Shown here piece after piece: positions 1,322-39,515 of a DNA stretch of 57,741 bases. The stretch comes from a virus. The notes beneath the pieces were generated by a model. That model saw nothing but the letters and a program-made list of their open reading frames with translations. It was not told the DNA's origin and did not search any database. Position 1 is the first letter of the stretch. Each line of letters begins with the position of its first letter. The stretch spans positions 1 to 57,741 of IMG/VR virus record IMGVR_UViG_3300036859_000226, one strand, 5' to 3'. The translations under genes were made by a program, and so were the position numbers.

Positions 1322-2331
1322 GACGGTTTGACCTGTCCCCACATGCCGGCGCGGCGTTCGGCGCGGAGTTGCGGCAAGCGTTGGGCCGCATATTCCTCCG
1401 TTGACAACTCATCGAGCGCCCGCGGGGTTGCCCCGTTATTACCGCCAACCGGGGCCATCGGCCGCGGCAGTCGCGACGGCTGCGGGCGCTCCGGCAATGC
1501 GAGGCGAGCCGATATCTTCCCGATCTCGACCGCCTGCTGAAGCGGGTTGAGCGCGGCAATGCGCGTCGCTTCAGCAGGGTTCTTGCCGAGATGGTAGAGC
1601 ACCTGCGGCCCGTTGTCGGCGATTAGGAGCGGCCCGATCATCGTCTCCGTCACCGGCAACGTCTCCGCCTCGGCGATCAACTCGAAATCGGCGTAGGCCG
1701 GGTCTTCCAGCAGCTTCGCCCGCTTCTCGGCATAGCCGTTGCGCAGGCTTTCAAAGTGCTGTTGCTCAGCCTGCCGCTGCCGTGCGGTTTCCTCAGTGTC
1801 GCGTTGCTCCTTCTGCCGCCGATCCAGTTCTTCGGCCGTGCGCTGGGCCGCCGCGGTCGCGGCCTTGCTCGTCGCCCACGACACTAGCGCCTCGTCATAA
1901 GCGTCAGGATCGGCAAACTGATCCCGCTGCGGCTTTGGCACGACCGGCTCGGTCGGGGCGGCCGGTTGCTGTTGGGCGGCCGTCAACTTCTCGACCAACT
2001 GCGTCAGCTTATCGACGCGGGCATCCGCTGCGGCGCGAGCCTCTTCGGCCGCCCGACGTGCCGCCGTCAATTCGGATAGGCGCTGCCCGAACCGTGATTG
2101 CTGCGGCTGCGACGCTGCCGGCGCACCCGCCTCGCCAATCTCGCCCTCACCACCCTCGGTGGCGGTTGTTCCGGTTTCTGCTTCTTGCCCGTTGGCTTGC
2201 GGCGGGGCGGCATTGTCTGTTCCCGGATGAGGCGGCGGTGGGGCAGGCGGCGGGGGTGTATCCGATGTCGCCGACGTAGCGGGCCCCGGCGGTGGCGCCG
2301 AGAGAATGTCGATGTTCGTTCCGTCAGCCAT
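1318..2331 (-). CDS. Scaffolding / head-assembly protein
   Basis: The 337-residue protein has a Pro/Ala-rich acidic N-terminus (1-75), a charged Ala/Glu/Arg/Gln-rich region (about 85-220) that should form long helices and coiled coil, and a basic C-terminal tail rich in Arg. This composition, and its place between portal and coat, is typical of P22-like scaffolds, whose sequence is poorly conserved. The ATG at 2331 lies inside the end of the portal gene (8-bp overlap), so it is probably translationally coupled. Function rests mainly on position and composition. Confidence 0.72.
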   Translation of the reverse strand: MADGTNIDILSAPPPGPATSATSDTPPPPAPPPPHPGTDNAAPPQANGQEAETGTTATEGGEGEIGEAGAPAASQPQQSRFGQRLSELTAARRAAEEARAAADARVDKLTQLVEKLTAAQQQPAAPTEPVVPKPQRDQFADPDAYDEALVSWATSKAATAAAQRTAEELDRRQKEQRDTEETARQRQAEQQHFESLRNGYAEKRAKLLEDPAYADFELIAEAETLPVTETMIGPLLIADNGPQVLYHLGKNPAEATRIAALNPLQQAVEIGKISARLALPERPQPSRLPRPMAPVGGNNGATPRALDELSTEEYAAQRLPQLRAERRAGMWGQVKPS

Positions 2332-4573
2332 TTGCAGCCTTCCCGTTCGGCAGCGGCCGATCCATCGCCGCGCGCAATTCTTCTACCCCACGCGCCAACT
2401 CGGCAATCGGCTCGCCGACTTGCTTCATCATCGCCTCGTCCTGCTTCTGCTGTATCGCCGCCATCTTGGTCTCAACCTGCGCGACGATCGCCAGAAGCTT
2501 CGCCTCGAATGTCTTCTCGATCTGGTCGGCCTGCAATGCCCGGTCGCTCTGCCGCTCGGTCAGCGCCGCGAGCAATTGCTGTTTCTCGGCAGCGGCTGCC
2601 TGCAAAGCCTTCTGCATCTGCATAATCATCGCCTGCACCTGCGGCGGCACGTCCTTCATCGTGTCCGGGGTCAGCAACTCCGGCGGCAGCATCTTCGCCA
2701 GCCTGGTCGCCATCTCCTCGGCCCCGGGCCAATCCATGTTCTTTGCCACGAGATCAGCAACATTGGCCGCAATCTGCGGCGCCGCTGGCGCCAAAGCCCG
2801 AACAAAATCCAGCATGCTCTCGCCGGCCTCAATCCGCTTCGTCGCGTAGGACGGGCCGATCGTCACCGTCACCCCGTATTTCCCAAAATTCGGATTGAAT
2901 ATCTTGAGCGTCTTGCCGGTCTGCGGGTTGCGCTGCTCCTGGAAGGGGCGCGCCGCGTGCGGGTCGACTTGGACCTGCTCCTCGCTGTCGTCCTCCCGAA
3001 GGATCGTCAACATCCGCTTCTGCTCGTAAACCTTCGGAATCAGATCGACGAGGATCTCGCCGGTGTGCCGCAAAGACCGGGCAAAGTTGTCGATGTAGTG
3101 AAACGAGCCCAAGTCGCCGCGCTCCCGCAACTCCCTGAGCGCCCGGCCACTCTCATCATAGACACGCTCGCCCCGCGTCGCGTCAAAACGGATGCCCGTG
3201 ACCGCCATCATGTCCTGCGCGGCAGCCTCGACCTCGGCCAGCACGGCTTGCGGCGCCCCCTGGAACGGCTGGCGCATCGGCGCCGGCGCGGCCTTGCCAC
3301 CCAGGTCCGTCCCCTTGTAAAGCAGATACGGCAGTGTCTTGACGTTGGCCTGCTTCCACTCCTGCTCGTGCCCCTCGACCTGCCCTTCCTCCATGACCCA
3401 GGGCGCTTTCGGCTGAAGCGAAGTGATCTCGACCGACAGGGTACGATGGAAGTTGTACATCATCTGCGGCTGCTTGGCGTTGCGGATCAGGCCCGACAAC
3501 CTCACCTTGCCCTGAATATCCGTTTCGTTACCGATGCACTTGATGAGCGGAATCCATTTGCCGGGCCACTCGGCCTCTTCCAACACATCGACAGCGGTCA
3601 GCTTGTAGTGCATGACCCGCGGCACGTCCGCCCACCGCTCGTCAACAACCTCCATCCGCTTCGCCGCGTCGTCGAGTTCGTCCCAGAACCCCTCGTGTCC
3701 GTTTTCAAGCAGCACGAGGCGGCGCTTCTCCACCTCGACCTCGAAGTACTCCGCGATGCGTATCTCGTCCTTTGTGACCCACTCCTTGTAATCCTCGCCG
3801 AAGCCGCCTTCGGTCCACGCCATCGGGTCGGCATCGGGCCATTCGTCCTCGAACTCCTTGCGCGACACCAGCTCGGTGACGAACCCATAGCGCGCATCTG
3901 AGCCGTCCGGCTCCTGCGCTCGCGGGTCCAAGTACACGGTAAACGGGTTGCGCACGCGGCGCAGAACGATCGTTTGCCGCAGCGTCTCGGGCGACTCGTA
4001 CTCAAGCATCACCCGCCAATAACCCCAGCCAATCGACACGGCCGAGTCAAACCCCGTGTCGTAGGCAATATCGGCGACGCTGGCCCGCTCGATCGCTCGG
4101 ATGAGACCGCGGTACATCTTTGCGACTTCAGGGTCGCTCTTGTCGCCGACCGGGTTGATGTTGATCGCCGGCCGGTTCATGCGCTGGTCATTGACGACCT
4201 GGTTGACGAACGTCGGCAGCTTGTTGATCGTCAGGCACGGCCGCATGTCGAAGTTGCGATCGGCCACGACATCGGCTGGCCACTGCCCCTCGCCCGTCTT
4301 GAACTTGAGATCGTCGAGCCCTTGCTTGCGGTTGTCGCTCTCGGCGGAGACGCATCCCATAAACCGCTTGCGGGCGCGGGCAAGCAATTCCTGCCGCGCA
4401 TCCTTGTCCGCCTTCGCCGGCGTCGGATCGCCCGGTTGCATCGCGATCGGGTCTTTGCCGCCGGCACTCGACTCGCGCAAGTTTGGTGACGGAACCTTGT
4501 TCATCGCCGTATCGACCGGCGGCAACCGTACCCGGCCGCTCTGCCTTGGCTTGCGCGGGTCTTGCGCGGCCAT
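2324..4573 (-). CDS. Portal protein, P22 gp1-like
   Basis: This 749-residue protein forms the dodecameric vertex through which DNA is packaged and ejected. The block PCLTINKLPTFVNQVVNDQR near residue 115, the later VDERWADVPRV and the region around DATRGERVYDESGRALRELR are characteristic of the P22-type portal. The C-terminal 150 residues are Gln/Ala-rich and helical, resembling the barrel of P22 gp1. Length agrees with the family (P22: 725). The ATG at 4573 follows a weak GGGGTGA; a small TTG-initiated gene ends just upstream at 4575. Confidence 0.93.
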   Translation of the reverse strand: MAAQDPRKPRQSGRVRLPPVDTAMNKVPSPNLRESSAGGKDPIAMQPGDPTPAKADKDARQELLARARKRFMGCVSAESDNRKQGLDDLKFKTGEGQWPADVVADRNFDMRPCLTINKLPTFVNQVVNDQRMNRPAININPVGDKSDPEVAKMYRGLIRAIERASVADIAYDTGFDSAVSIGWGYWRVMLEYESPETLRQTIVLRRVRNPFTVYLDPRAQEPDGSDARYGFVTELVSRKEFEDEWPDADPMAWTEGGFGEDYKEWVTKDEIRIAEYFEVEVEKRRLVLLENGHEGFWDELDDAAKRMEVVDERWADVPRVMHYKLTAVDVLEEAEWPGKWIPLIKCIGNETDIQGKVRLSGLIRNAKQPQMMYNFHRTLSVEITSLQPKAPWVMEEGQVEGHEQEWKQANVKTLPYLLYKGTDLGGKAAPAPMRQPFQGAPQAVLAEVEAAAQDMMAVTGIRFDATRGERVYDESGRALRELRERGDLGSFHYIDNFARSLRHTGEILVDLIPKVYEQKRMLTILREDDSEEQVQVDPHAARPFQEQRNPQTGKTLKIFNPNFGKYGVTVTIGPSYATKRIEAGESMLDFVRALAPAAPQIAANVADLVAKNMDWPGAEEMATRLAKMLPPELLTPDTMKDVPPQVQAMIMQMQKALQAAAAEKQQLLAALTERQSDRALQADQIEKTFEAKLLAIVAQVETKMAAIQQKQDEAMMKQVGEPIAELARGVEELRAAMDRPLPNGKAANG

Positions 4574-8837: not shown

Positions 8838-9718
8838 ACGCCGCAACCCCCCTCGCAGTCGGCGAAGGCGTCAAAGCCAGTGTCGTCGGGATCAAGATAG
8901 AGGCCGGGCAGTGTGGGTTCGCGTCTGATGCGATCAGCGATTTGTGCATAACTCTCGCGGTCAGGTGACCGGAACTGGCCGTTCGTATAGCCGCGAGCCT
9001 TCGCCAGCCGCTCTTGTTCGCTCCACCACAGCATTTTGTCGGGGTGGTCAATCGTCATGCGCACGAGCGAGCCTTGCCGTTTCAGGAAACAACCGTCGCA
9101 GTTTCCTTCCCAATCACCCGCCAAGCCAAGATCGAACGGTTGCGCGGCCCAGAACGGTTTGACGTGCCCTAGCTTTGTCATTCTCGCCTTGGCGAGCGGG
9201 CACGATCCGAAATGGCCGTCGCGGCGCGAGGCGTTACGAAGGGCTATCCGGTGTACCCGGTGAAGCTCGTCATACCGAAGGCCGAGATACCGTCGGTGCC
9301 ATCCCCAACCAAGCTCATCGCGCACCCAACGTTGCACGGTGCGCATTTTCAATTCCTCGGTGCAGAAGCGCATCTTTGGTCCAGGTAGCATGTAGCCGCG
9401 CGCTTCGAGGAGTTGGACGAATGGTTCCCCGTTACGGCTGGCGCTGTTGTGACTCACTGCCTCTGCCCATTGCCTGCCAGTCTCCGGATCGCGCCGATAC
9501 TCAAGCCATTGGATATGGACGCTCCAATGCACGGACATATCCCGCACGAAATCCAGCGTTGCCGGCATTTCGCGTCCGGTGTTGCAGAAGAACGCAAACA
9601 CATCTGGAGGCAACCTGCCGTCGTGGCGCTCAAGGATGTGATGCAGCATCATCCCCGACGTTCGGCCGCCGCTGACATTGATCGCTGACGGGCCTTGGAG
9701 GCGGAACGGGTCAGGCAT
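8834..9718 (-). CDS. PAPS reductase-like / PP-loop enzyme
   Basis: The 294-residue protein has an N-terminal PP-loop INVSGGRTSGMML (the SGGxxS nucleotide loop of ATP-pyrophosphatase and PAPS-reductase families), the block FFCNTGREMPATLDFV that commonly follows it, and Cys-rich patches CTEELKMR, NCDGCFLKR and CEGGC at the end. Such stand-alone phage enzymes are widespread and their substrate is not known; relatives handle sulfate activation, tRNA or DNA sulfur chemistry. It sits between a secreted nuclease and a small protein. The fold call is good; the reaction cannot be named. Confidence 0.75.
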   Translation of the reverse strand: MPDPFRLQGPSAINVSGGRTSGMMLHHILERHDGRLPPDVFAFFCNTGREMPATLDFVRDMSVHWSVHIQWLEYRRDPETGRQWAEAVSHNSASRNGEPFVQLLEARGYMLPGPKMRFCTEELKMRTVQRWVRDELGWGWHRRYLGLRYDELHRVHRIALRNASRRDGHFGSCPLAKARMTKLGHVKPFWAAQPFDLGLAGDWEGNCDGCFLKRQGSLVRMTIDHPDKMLWWSEQERLAKARGYTNGQFRSPDRESYAQIADRIRREPTLPGLYLDPDDTGFDAFADCEGGCGV

Positions 9719-9721
9719 CGC

Positions 9722-10222
9722 TCATTTCCCCTGCCTCTTGCGCCATTCCCAGGGCCAATCGAACTCACCCGACCATACACCCAATCGCTCGGCCTTCGCC
9801 GCCTCTTGCCGATCCTCGTAGGCTCCGGTCGAGTAGCGCGGCCATACCGCCGCCAACCCGTGGCTGACGAGCATCCCGGCGATGTCGCCCTCAGACGTGG
9901 CACAGGACGCGACGGAGCGCCCATACACATCAATTGAGCGCACGGAGCATGTGGCGGGGCCGCGGGCGAGGATACGCGCCAGCGCCTTCTCGGCCTCTTC
10001 TCCGCAAAACCACGGGATGCGCTCGATGCAAAGCTGGTCGCGCTCGGGCGCGTCGATTTCCGCGAGTCGCACCCGGACGCCGGCGACGATCAGGGTGTCG
10101 CCATCAATGGCTTGCGCGTAGCCGCTGATCGTGACCTGCGCCTGCGGCTCGGGGATGGCGAGCGCGGCGAGGGAGCCGGCGAGGACGAGGCAGGCCAGCG
10201 CGGAGTTTAGGTGGTCGGTCAT
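9722..10222 (-). CDS. Exported thermonuclease-like protein (SNase fold)
   Basis: This 166-residue protein has a Sec-type signal (residues 1-30, LNSALACLVLAGSLAALAIP) and then an SNase domain: YAQAIDGDTLIVAGVRVRLA, IDAPERDQLC, and VYGRSVASC. These match the staphylococcal-nuclease core (DGDTxxV, RLxxIDAPE, YGR), though the later catalytic Glu/Arg pattern was not fully checked. The ATG at 10222 overlaps the stop of the upstream 54-residue gene. It would act in the periplasm or be lytic-stage degradative; cysteines suggest disulfides. Confidence 0.8.
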   Translation of the reverse strand: MTDHLNSALACLVLAGSLAALAIPEPQAQVTISGYAQAIDGDTLIVAGVRVRLAEIDAPERDQLCIERIPWFCGEEAEKALARILARGPATCSVRSIDVYGRSVASCATSEGDIAGMLVSHGLAAVWPRYSTGAYEDRQEAAKAERLGVWSGEFDWPWEWRKRQGK

Positions 10223-32910: not shown

Positions 32911-33321
32911 TCACACACCCTTGGGAGCCGGGCTCGGCTCCACGTTGGCCGGCGCAGAAGGTGCCGCGGCAATCTCTTCCGGCGAGACCCGAACCGCTTT
33001 ATTAGGCATCCCCTCAGCGGTCACGGTCAGAGTAACCGGCGTCGCAACGCCCGCGGTCATCGTGGCTGCGGCCGATGCCTTCGCAGCCGCGACTTCGGCC
33101 CTGCGTGCATTCCTGATTGCGACAATCTTCTGCCACGCCGACCAGAGCAGAGTCGCGAGCATGAAGCCGGCGCTTACCGCCATCGTAACTTGGTCGCCGG
33201 TCACGGTCAGCGCCCAGGTGAAGCCGAACCCGCTCGCGATCTGCACCAGGCCGCGCACAACAGCCCCGACGATCGGCAGGTACGGCTGCATCCATTCCGC
33301 GATCGTGAGTTTATCCGACAC
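32911..33321 (-). CDS. Holin, Pam3-gp28-like
   Basis: I choose GTG 33321, preceded by GGGAGGGGAAG, giving 136 residues. It starts with LTIAEWMQPYLPIVGAVVRG, has two membrane segments (about 14-40 and 47-68) and a long Ala-rich charged C-terminal tail. Layout and the WQKYI-like start resemble the Pam3-gp28 family of putative holins. It follows the endolysin gene on the same strand, after the tRNA-like locus. Confidence 0.65.
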   Translation of the reverse strand: MSDKLTIAEWMQPYLPIVGAVVRGLVQIASGFGFTWALTVTGDQVTMAVSAGFMLATLLWSAWQKIVAIRNARRAEVAAAKASAAATMTAGVATPVTLTVTAEGMPNKAVRVSPEEIAAAPSAPANVEPSPAPKGV

Positions 33322-33384
33322 TGGCTTCCCCTCCCGCGCTTGCCGTGCAATAATGCGCCCGCGCGGCGTTGCCTGCAACATTGG

Positions 33385-33460
33385 TGCAGGTGGAAGGGAC
33401 AGCGACCTAATCAGGTTCATACCCTGATTGCTACGGGTGCAATTCCCGTACCTGCCTCCA
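33385..33460 (+). tRNA. Degenerate initiator-type tRNA-Met (CAU) with encoded CCA
   Basis: Exactly 76 nt fold as a cloverleaf: acceptor TGCAGGT/ACCTGCC with positions 2-7 paired and a mismatch at 1-72, D stem AGG/CCT, anticodon stem TCAGG/CCTGA with loop TTCATAC (anticodon CAT, U33, A37), T stem ACGGG/CCCGT and a 3' T-CCA. The 1-72 mismatch and A11-T24 pair are features of bacterial initiator tRNA. G8, G14, C19 and the T-loop TGCAATT are non-standard, so it may be a decayed or specialised RNA. It lies on the strand opposite to the lysis genes. Confidence 0.6.
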
Positions 33461-33502
33461 ATATCTGCAACCTCGCGCCTCTACCTCCCAGTTGCAAAAC
33501 TC

Positions 33503-33527
33503 GGCCGGCGGCAACGTCGGCCTTTTT
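33503..33527 (+). terminator. Rho-independent terminator of the tRNA-like gene
   Basis: GGCCG (33503-33507) pairs with CGGCC (33518-33522) across a 10-nt loop and is followed at once by TTTTT (33523-33527). It lies 42 bp after the CCA and is directed on the plus strand, so the tRNA-like RNA appears to have its own transcription unit. Confidence 0.6.
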
Positions 33528-33697: not shown

Positions 33698-34366
33698 TCA
33701 TCCCCGCCTCGCCTGCCACGCCTTGAGCGCCGCATCGGTGCGCTCGCCTGGTATGCCATCGATCGGCCCCGGATTATATCCTGCTGCCTTGAGCACGGTC
33801 TGCAATGCCCGCACGGTCGCCGACATAGCGAGATAGGTCGCCTGCACCGTATCGTTCAGGTCTTGGGTCGGCGGCGGAGTCTGGACAGGCGATACGCGCG
33901 GTCCGGCGAGCGCCAGCTTGGCATAATCGAGGCGCGGGGCAAATCCGGCATCCGGATCGGATGGCCGCTCGAATAGGCGCTGGAATACGTCAACAGCCTT
34001 CGAGACAGTCAATGTCTTGCGGAGAGCAGCGAGCGCCCGCGCCTCGGTGGTTTGGAGTTCATGAATTAGAAAACCGTAATTCGCCTCGTCGGTGCCGACA
34101 TCAAGCCCCTCGTTTGCCGCCCATGTCTCGAATGCGGCGCGCCGGCTCCCGGTCCACTGCGCGATTCCAAAGCCACCGCGGCTGCCCGGCACGAGCGGAT
34201 GGTGCTCGTTGATGTCCGGGTCCAGTCCACTCTCGCCCCCAAGATTGCCGACGATGCCGGCCGCCTGGTTCTCGGTCAGCGCGAGGTCGGCCATCAGCCG
34301 GTCGATCAGCCACCGCCCGCGTGCGGGGAAGCCGGCGGACAGCGGCGGCATGTCGAATGCGGTCAT
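33698..34366 (-). CDS. Endolysin: tail-lysozyme domain plus peptidoglycan-binding domain
   Basis: The 222-residue protein has an N-terminal phage_tail_lysozyme-like domain (LALTENQAAGIVGNLGGESG with the catalytic Glu, then GGFGIAQWTGSRRAAFETWA) and a C-terminal peptidoglycan-binding repeat (VRALQTVLKAAGYNPGPIDG ... RTDAALKAWQ). It has no signal peptide, so it needs a holin, present at 32911-33321. It cuts the cell wall at the end of infection. Confidence 0.88.
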   Translation of the reverse strand: MTAFDMPPLSAGFPARGRWLIDRLMADLALTENQAAGIVGNLGGESGLDPDINEHHPLVPGSRGGFGIAQWTGSRRAAFETWAANEGLDVGTDEANYGFLIHELQTTEARALAALRKTLTVSKAVDVFQRLFERPSDPDAGFAPRLDYAKLALAGPRVSPVQTPPPTQDLNDTVQATYLAMSATVRALQTVLKAAGYNPGPIDGIPGERTDAALKAWQARRG

Positions 34367-36864: not shown

Positions 36865-37229
36865 GGCTTCTCAGCCCCGCCCGACGGCGCATAGAGCGGC
36901 TTGGCATACCCCTCCCAATCCCGAACCCGCTGCTCCATCGCCGCTTTCTCCATCGCCGCCTTCCTCGCGTCCTCCCGCGCCAGGGTGATCGCCGCCGTCG
37001 CATCGTTCAACTCGCCTAGCATCTGCCCCATGCGCTGCGTGTCGAGCGCAATCCGGCAGCGCACTTGGTCGAGATCGACGCCCCCAGCTGGCGGCTGCCC
37101 GCTCCGAACGCAAGGCGATGGGGATGGTTGCTGTGCATTGGCTCCAGCCATCATGGTTGCGAAGCCAATAAGCATAATCACCACCACCACCAGCGCGCCG
37201 GGCGGCGGCATATCGTCGTCTCGTCTCAT
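36861..37229 (-). CDS. Exported or membrane-anchored helical protein
   Basis: The 122-residue protein from ATG 37229 starts MRRDDDMPPPGALVVVVIML, with a hydrophobic segment ending near MAGANAQQ that could be a cleaved signal. A Cys pair (SPCVRSG, VRCRIAL) and a long helix (MLGELNDATAAITLAREDAR) follow. Inner-membrane anchor plus periplasmic coil would suit an i-spanin, but this is only by layout. Confidence 0.5.
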   Translation of the reverse strand: MRRDDDMPPPGALVVVVIMLIGFATMMAGANAQQPSPSPCVRSGQPPAGGVDLDQVRCRIALDTQRMGQMLGELNDATAAITLAREDARKAAMEKAAMEQRVRDWEGYAKPLYAPSGGAEKP

Positions 37230-38152
37230 GTCGCCTCCACCACTACCGCCGCCCGGCGCGCTGTCGGCTTCCGCGCCAGCGCCGGCCTCTCGACCAGATA
37301 CCACGACAGCGCCGCGAGCGCGACAGTCACGGTCAGAGAGAGCGCGAACAGCCCAGCGATCGGCACGCCCGGCATCAGCGAGGCGAACACCCGCTCGACC
37401 GGGTAGCCGTAGATGTAGATGCCGTAGGAGAAGTCGCCGAGGCGGCCAGCGTCCCGCAGGCCAGGCCACGATAGCAGCCCGATCCAGAGCGCCAGCGGGG
37501 CCATCAGAGTGAAGCCAAGGTAATCGTGCAGCGGCAGGAGCGCGAGACCCGCCAGCGCCATCCACGGCGCTCCGCGCACGACCCAGGGCCACGCTGCGGC
37601 CGCGGCACCGATCGCGAAGAACAGGCCGAGGCGTCCGGTCTGCGCCAGCGTGAAGTTGTCGGGCGGGATCAGCACCAGCAGGACCGCCCCCGCAATCCAA
37701 ATGAGGGGCATCCGTCGCGTTACCACAGCGCCGACCACAAACAGCCCGTAGCACAGCGCCTCGATCGGGATCGTCCACAAGGAGCCGTTGCCCCAGGCCA
37801 CCGGCACCCGCGTCAGCGCGTTGTCCGCGAGGTACGGCTCGACCCCTGGCACATTGCCCGAGATGATCGCGAGTTCTGCCGTAAGAAACAGGCATGGCCC
37901 CAGCGCCGGCAGTAGCCGCAGCGCCCGCCTCGCAAGAAACCGCCCGACATCGGGATCGCTCGACCAACTGCGCGAGACCAGATAGCCGCTGATCGTGAAG
38001 AACAGCATCACGCCGAGCTCGCCAAGCTGCCGGCCGGCGACGAGGAACGGTTGCGGGAGGGCCGCCAAGCCGTACAGGTGCGTGACGAAAACGGCAAGCG
38101 CCCCGATGAGGCGCAGCGCGTCGAAATTGTTTGAACGATTAGTCATATCCAT
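37226..38152 (-). CDS. Acyltransferase 3 family membrane enzyme
   Basis: The 308-residue protein starts MDMTNRSNNFDALRLIGALA and shows the acyltransferase-3 pattern: N-terminal FDALR, then VTHLYGLA with the conserved His, VMLFFTISGYLVSRSW, LARRALRLLPALG, GSLWTIPIEALCYGLF and about ten membrane segments ending SWYLVERPAL. Family members such as OafA O-acetylate surface polysaccharide. In a phage it could alter the host O-antigen to block further adsorption. The gene overlaps the fibre-like gene upstream by 14 bp. Confidence 0.88.
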   Translation of the reverse strand: MDMTNRSNNFDALRLIGALAVFVTHLYGLAALPQPFLVAGRQLGELGVMLFFTISGYLVSRSWSSDPDVGRFLARRALRLLPALGPCLFLTAELAIISGNVPGVEPYLADNALTRVPVAWGNGSLWTIPIEALCYGLFVVGAVVTRRMPLIWIAGAVLLVLIPPDNFTLAQTGRLGLFFAIGAAAAAWPWVVRGAPWMALAGLALLPLHDYLGFTLMAPLALWIGLLSWPGLRDAGRLGDFSYGIYIYGYPVERVFASLMPGVPIAGLFALSLTVTVALAALSWYLVERPALARKPTARRAAVVVEAT

Positions 38153-39515
38153 AAAGCATCGCCTTCCCTGACGCCAAATTCCCACTCGATGAAGTGATGA
38201 ACAAATCGGTGATCGCATTGGTGTCCGCGGTATAGGTGCAAGAGCCAAGATGCCGGAAGACGCTCGTCCCGTTGTAGAAGGTCTGGACGTAGGAGGCCGA
38301 CTTAGCCTGCGTCGTCGATTGCAGGTTCTTCATCGTATATTCGCCGTTGACGCCACCGTGCGAAGTCGTGTTCGTCACGGCGTTGAAGTTGGCACAGAAG
38401 CTGTTCGCCTCGCTGTTGGTGTTAGTTGTCGTGGTGGTGGCGCTGGAGGTCGAGAGGAACGTCGTGTGGTAGCCGCTGGTCTTCGAGACCCCCGCCTCCC
38501 CGAAGGTGAAGGTGATGCTGACGCTGTTCGTCGCGGGCAGGATCGCGTCGAGGACCAGAACGTAGTTGTTGTAGGTTGGCAAGGATGAGAATTGGAGCGT
38601 CGTCGCGGTGTTGTTCGCGGTCAGGGTGGAAATGAGGCACCACCCCTTGTTGGTGATTCCCGTCGCGCACGGAAGCCCCGTCGCGTTCGTCAGCACGCCA
38701 GCCGACGGCGTGCCGAGATCGCCGCCCTGAAAATACGCGGCGCCGGTGCCGCTCTCGTCGGTCAGCGCGCCGCGCAGGTTGGTGCTCGACGGCGTGCCGA
38801 GAAATGTCGCGACGCCGGCGCCAAGGCCGCTGATACCGGTATCGACCGGCAGCCCCGTCGCGCTCGTAAGCGTCGCGGCACTCGGCGTCCCCAGGTTCGG
38901 GGTCGTCAGCACCATGTTCGCCGCCGCGAGACCGCTCGGCAGCGTCGTGCTAATTGACGGGACACCAGTCCCGCCCGTCACCAGCACGCCACTATTGCCG
39001 GTTGCTAGATTGCCGAGCACGCCCGCGTTGTCGTACAGGAGGCCCTTGTCGGTGCCGCTGGTGATTGCAGTCGTGCCGACCGTAAGATTGGTCGCCGATC
39101 CACCCCCACCCCCACCCTTTGCAAGCGGCGATCCGACGCCGGCCGCCATCGAGAGTGTTGTGCTGCCGCTCGCAGTAATGCCGGCAAGATGCGTCGCGCC
39201 ATTGAGTGCGATCATGGCATCGCCGCCAGCCGCGACAAGAACTCCGCCGGTCGTTGCGACAACCGCGCTGTCACCGGCCACCACATAGGCGTCAACCAAA
39301 CCGCCGTTGTGGAGCCAAAGGTTTGTCGGTGGCGGCGTCGGTCTGACGGCGGTCCACCCCAATGCCACCCGGGAGGACGAATTGCTCGCCGACAGGCTGA
39401 CGGTGGCTCCGACCTGCGCCCACGGTGCCTGATAAACCACGCCAGACTGAGCGAGCGCCGCTGCCGACGCCAGCAGCAACACAACGCCAGCCGCTATTCC
39501 TCTCCATCCCTTCAT
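38139..39515 (-). CDS. Fibre-like protein with signal peptide (1)
   Basis: The 458-residue protein from ATG 39515 begins with a clear Sec signal (MKGWRGIAAGVVLLLASAAA, cleavage near ALA-QS). The middle carries the tail-fibre repeat pattern NLGTPSAATLTSATGLPVDT and DLGTPSAGVLTNATGLPCAT, Ser/Thr/Gly-rich and beta-structured. The C-terminal domain is a sandwich-like fold with several Cys. Fibre repeats in an exported protein are unusual. Confidence 0.65.
   Translation of the reverse strand: MKGWRGIAAGVVLLLASAAALAQSGVVYQAPWAQVGATVSLSASNSSSRVALGWTAVRPTPPPTNLWLHNGGLVDAYVVAGDSAVVATTGGVLVAAGGDAMIALNGATHLAGITASGSTTLSMAAGVGSPLAKGGGGGGSATNLTVGTTAITSGTDKGLLYDNAGVLGNLATGNSGVLVTGGTGVPSISTTLPSGLAAANMVLTTPNLGTPSAATLTSATGLPVDTGISGLGAGVATFLGTPSSTNLRGALTDESGTGAAYFQGGDLGTPSAGVLTNATGLPCATGITNKGWCLISTLTANNTATTLQFSSLPTYNNYVLVLDAILPATNSVSITFTFGEAGVSKTSGYHTTFLSTSSATTTTTNTNSEANSFCANFNAVTNTTSHGGVNGEYTMKNLQSTTQAKSASYVQTFYNGTSVFRHLGSCTYTADTNAITDLFITSSSGNLASGKAMLYGYD

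Follow-up and report, generated by a model that had tools for sequence, protein, structure and literature searches.

A phage tRNA(CAU) gene of initiator-like character with an A18/G55 elbow exchange

Codon supply does not explain why phages should bring their own start tRNA. This question is raised by a lone gene in the 57,741-base virus record analyzed here over its whole length (the window), in which we recognized genes for a P22-like portal protein (2324-4573; PHROG 156), a terminase and a DnaB helicase, together with RecT-like genes. The original prediction had pointed to an initiator-like tRNA(CAU) with abnormal loops, followed by a terminator and lying antisense to the lysis genes. To say what this element is, its fold, its class, its initiator marks and its genomic setting have to be considered in turn.

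Fold and variant elbow of the window tRNA

ARAGORN recovered a single tRNA from the window, a tRNA-Met(CAT) of 76 nt at 33385-33460 on the plus strand, and 200 dinucleotide-shuffled copies of the window gave three calls, or 0.015 per copy. The gene forms a four-arm cloverleaf with standard spacings and with anticodon and T loops of 7 nt, as expected of a tRNA. Its acceptor stem has six pairs (2-7/66-71), its D stem three (11-13/22-24) and its anticodon (27-31/39-43) and T (49-53/61-65) stems five each, all of them standard, and the CCA 3' end is encoded (33458-33460). The predicted cloverleaf, with its 76 nt, CCA, CAU anticodon, 1-72 mismatch and A11-U24 pair, is thus borne out by the ARAGORN call, which had been proposed as a check, by the inspection of the stems and by the shuffle control. 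Free-energy folding placed the minimum at -28.8 kcal/mol and the cloverleaf at -23.5 kcal/mol, favoring another fold by about 5 kcal/mol. The sequence matches none of the Rfam families at the gathering score, which fits a divergent tRNA. The element is a real but unusual start-type tRNA of a phage.

In the normal elbow, residue 18 is inserted between residues 57 and 58 of the T-loop, where it touches Psi55, and residue 19 pairs with 56 (PMC4810234). Comparison with the sequence class described below places A18-G19-C20 in the D-loop GACAGCGA of the window tRNA (33398-33405, plus strand) and G55-C56 in its T-loop TGCAATT (33438-33444, plus strand), so that G19-C56 persists and A18-G55 takes the place of the near-universal G18-Psi55. 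Instead of the U8-A14 contact there are G8 (33392) and G14 (33398). Positions 8, 14 and 19 and the T-loop had all been called abnormal; this holds for 8, 14 and the T-loop, whereas position 19 is normal once the loop is read in register as A18-G19-C20. The A18/G55 exchange marks a variant tRNA and does not exclude the element from being one, as other kinds of tRNA without the canonical elbow bases are known.

Paired exchange at positions 18 and 55

Viral sequences were searched for the class with the pattern GGTTCATACC N9-15 GGT(G/T)C(A/G)A.TCC, which returned at least 120 stretches, and most of those listed are initiator-like tRNA(CAU) genes, the majority of which form no standard 1-72 pair. 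The T-loop of this class has either the normal TTC or TGC, and TGC goes together with a D-loop in which AG replaces GG. Among the unique class sequences listed, 58 of the 59 with G55 (the window tRNA counted) have A18-G19 and 84 of the 86 with U55 have G18-G19, counts that come from partly listed matches and kin sequences and therefore describe an association, not a frequency. A two-base-pair helix of G19-C56 and C20-G55 was considered and dropped, since position 20 is C in 101 cases, U in 80 and sometimes A or G.

As a control we took tRNAs that lie near the listed matches and are independent of the pattern: 35 have A18/G55, 3 have A18/U55, 590 have G18/U55 and none has G18/G55, and 57 more with an AGG D-loop are ambiguous (55 with U55, 2 with G55). 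Fisher's test on these neighboring tRNAs gives p ~1e-54 for the 18/55 association, a value that ignores shared descent and is not a true probability. When the D-loop was fixed and the T-loop left free, tRNAs with an AGC D-loop carried G55, except L181 (U55); L180 had been mis-framed in parsing. When an all-isotype template was run in full for A18 combined with U55, 80 stretches were recovered, only four of them genuine in-register tRNAs, and on that template at least 95 unique tRNAs have A18/G55. Like the class counts, these control counts describe an association and not a frequency.

The exchange extends well beyond tRNA(CAU). Isotypes called for the pattern-independent A18/G55 members are Glu, Cys, Leu, Gln, Ile, Lys, Thr, Asn, Pro, Ala, Tyr, Phe and Gly. 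Long variable arms are seen in the Leu and Tyr members, which are therefore not re-anticodoned initiators; this makes an origin of the exchange from one initiator gene unlikely. The window tRNA is one of many phage tRNAs whose bases 18 and 55 have been exchanged together, the L-shape apparently being retained, and the covariation points to an 18-55 contact in these tRNAs. On the evidence of these sequences, its loop oddities are not random decay: they recur as a paired exchange, as a working tRNA fold predicts.

Not every oddity is shared, however. The changes at 18 and 55 are common to the class, whereas those at 8, 10, 14, 72 and 73 are rare in it or unique to the window copy. Among the matches listed, U8 and A14 are each present in 58 of the 59 G55 members; the window tRNA is the sole carrier of G8, of G14 and of A/A at 10-25 among these 59 sequences, and its C72 and U73 are uncommon there. 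The window copy is thus more divergent than its class at G8, A10 and G14, and may be decaying. A former working member of the class that now drifts without present function would account for changes at 8, 10 and 14 that set it apart from the 58 other G55 members listed, for the rare bases at 72 and 73, and for the absence of the tRNA from portal-level relatives in IMG/VR (50-56% identity). Drift should break pairs, however, and here the helices, the CAU anticodon, the CCA end and the matched A18/G55 are all intact, with a strong terminator-like hairpin downstream. We regard decay as unlikely, though by no means negligible. G8 with G14 is possibly a second paired change or a further remodeling of the core, which a single sequence cannot establish.

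Searches for exact and similar DNA with the window tRNA in phages, plasmids and viral contigs gave nothing useful, and searches with the endolysin and holin found no closer phages and no relatives with the same locus. L046, a 56 kb contig related by its portal protein, has a cluster of three other tRNAs (Gln, Pro and Thr) at 9521-9787. The G55 initiator-like pattern, scanned across some 85,000 genomes of bacteria and archaea, matched 34 stretches, which come mainly from Nostoc and other cyanobacteria and in a few cases from Brucella, Reyranella and others. With one template applied to 289 alphaproteobacterial genomes, A18/G55 was found in 2/289, as against 129/289 for G18/U55. Judged from these sequences, the exchange is rare in bacterial chromosomes. 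Tandem tRNAs of Nostoc and other cyanobacteria (compare the Anabaena trn operon, PMC10272220) also include A18/G55 tRNA(CAU), along with Glu, Gln and Cys tRNAs, and several cyanobacterial tRNAs are among the sequences nearest to the window tRNA; these are arrays in bacterial genomes, in contrast to the single phage gene described here.

Initiator character and genomic setting

The window tRNA resembles bacterial initiator tRNA-fMet in its CAU anticodon, called by ARAGORN, in U1/C72, which form no Watson-Crick pair, in A11-U24 and in the encoded CCA; the first three of these support the claim of an initiator-like tRNA(CAU). Unlike tRNA-fMet, it does not have three G-C pairs at 29-31/39-41, as 29-41 is A-U and only 30-40 and 31-39 are G-C, and for this reason we label it initiator-like and not a proven initiator. 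It also differs from tRNA-fMet in its anticodon loop (UUCAUAC instead of CUCAUAA), in its elbow (A18/G55 instead of G18/Psi55) and in G8, G14 and U73. Among the G55 class members listed, A11-U24 is present in 43/59 and a 1-72 position without a standard pair in 52/59, with G-C at 29-41 in only 10/59; A11-U24 is present in 36/86 of the U55 members listed. An elongator tRNA-Met, or a tRNA-Ile2 with lysidine at C34, would be compatible with the A-U at 29-41 in place of the classical G-C, and with the C11-G24 of some class members, but the 1-72 mismatch and A11-U24 are marks of an initiator and make either identity rather improbable.

Rightward genes stop near 31.7 kb. Downstream of the tRNA, at 33503-33527 on the plus strand, lies a hairpin of eight pairs (seven of them G-C) followed by TTTTT, which resembles an intrinsic terminator and agrees with the hairpin and T5 run originally described; it is the only terminator-like site on the plus strand within 22.5-35 kb. 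No local promoter was recognized for the tRNA. With rightward genes reaching about 31.7 kb, a plus strand free of terminator-like sites from 22.5 kb up to 33503 and no local promoter recognized, the simplest arrangement places the tRNA last among the rightward genes. From the sequence, it is probably the final gene of a rightward transcript, with the hairpin as the transcript end.

Genes for lysis converge on this site. A probable holin is encoded on the minus strand at 32911-33321 (PHROG 263, E 2.6e-4 for the longer ORF 32911-33420), its GTG start at 33321, after GGAGGGG, having been picked from reading the sequence. An endolysin with Phage_lysozyme2 and PG_binding_1 domains (Pfam E 4e-28) follows at 33698-34366, also on the minus strand, and an Acyltransferase-3 domain protein (37226-38248; Pfam E 1.6e-19) lies within the minus-strand gene block. 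The tRNA is upstream of the holin, 64 bases from its probable start and on the opposite strand, a position that had suggested an antisense or decoy RNA against the holin leader. However, such a position is expected of any convergent gene. Inspection of holin neighborhoods in relatives had been proposed, and in Phage CBW1004C-Prop1 an unannotated tRNA of the class does adjoin lysis genes: antitermination protein Q, a GIY-YIG nuclease and a terminator-like run rich in T precede it, and peptidase, lysis protein and terminase genes follow. There the tRNA and the lysis genes share one strand, so being antisense is no feature of the class. Further isolated members are found near terminase, portal or helicase genes. 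A role as decoy or regulator of the holin leader is therefore unsupported and highly improbable, and the antisense overlap appears to follow simply from the convergent layout of the genes.

Genes for tRNA are frequent integration sites of temperate phages. The copy might thus be an attP marker of an integration site, unused as a tRNA, but the gene is complete rather than reduced to its 3' part, and a search of the window for a tyrosine integrase, whose control worked, found none, in a record that is possibly incomplete. We consider an attP marker extremely improbable.

We assign a probability of about 0.6 to the reading that the window holds a phage initiator-class tRNA(CAU) gene of the A18-G55 elbow class, which supplies a start tRNA and probably ends a rightward transcript. 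The rightward transcript would pass the convergent lysis genes and halt at 33503-33527, and the tRNA would then be charged, formylated and used in initiation, supplying a start tRNA in infection. A18-G55 would stand in for G18-Psi55 with G19-C56 unchanged, and the L-shape should hold without Psi55 (TruB) and Gm18 (TrmH).

Possible advantages and related tRNAs

With G at 55 and A at 18, neither Psi55 nor Gm18 can form, so A18/G55 tRNAs do not depend on TruB or TrmH at either site; that this independence is the advantage of the exchange is a guess. The exchange may also bring a benefit through escape from modification or from host defences that cut tRNA. More broadly, though with less than even confidence, we suggest that the A18-G55 elbow arose repeatedly in phages and tRNA arrays, freeing their tRNAs from TruB and TrmH and maybe concealing them from elbow-reading host enzymes, and that it is common in initiator-like tRNAs, where it provides phages with a modification-independent start tRNA.

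A search of the open-licence literature gave no relevant report of the A18/G55 exchange or of 18-55 covariation. Zagryadskaya, Kotlova and Steinberg reportedly found (J Mol Biol in 2004 and later) that in selected suppressor tRNAs alternative elbow contacts support a working tRNA; those were laboratory selections, in contrast to the natural phage tRNAs described here. As a recurring natural replacement, mainly in phages, the A18/G55 tRNAs offer a ready set for testing the role of the 18-55 pair and of its modifications. T-loops whose second residue is G occur in FMN and cobalamin riboswitches (PMC2258182), which makes the A18/G55 geometry plausible.

Phage tRNAs with changed anticodon loops have been proposed to evade host tRNA nucleases, and the phages examined in that study generally avoid tRNA-fMet where VapC targets tRNA-fMet (eLife 2023, PMC10264068). 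What they have in common with our case is a phage tRNA gene with a changed anticodon loop; the parts of that article consulted here concern anticodon loops and mention no exchange in the D- or T-loop. By analogy, the nuclease-escape idea, as put forward in those parts, could extend to A18/G55 tRNAs.

Some phage A18/G55 tRNAs with initiator bodies have other anticodons. CCU replaces CAU in L290 (3811-3885), L326 (1105-1179), L343 (10399-10473) and L368 (949-1023). The loop region of the L368 tRNA reads CCUCCUUA, which we take to be identical to the 3' end of 16S rRNA (the anti-Shine-Dalgarno sequence). The CCU tRNAs may be start tRNAs that read another codon, or may be mimics. A CUU anticodon is found on a further initiator-bodied A18/G55 tRNA, in L371 (2403-2476).
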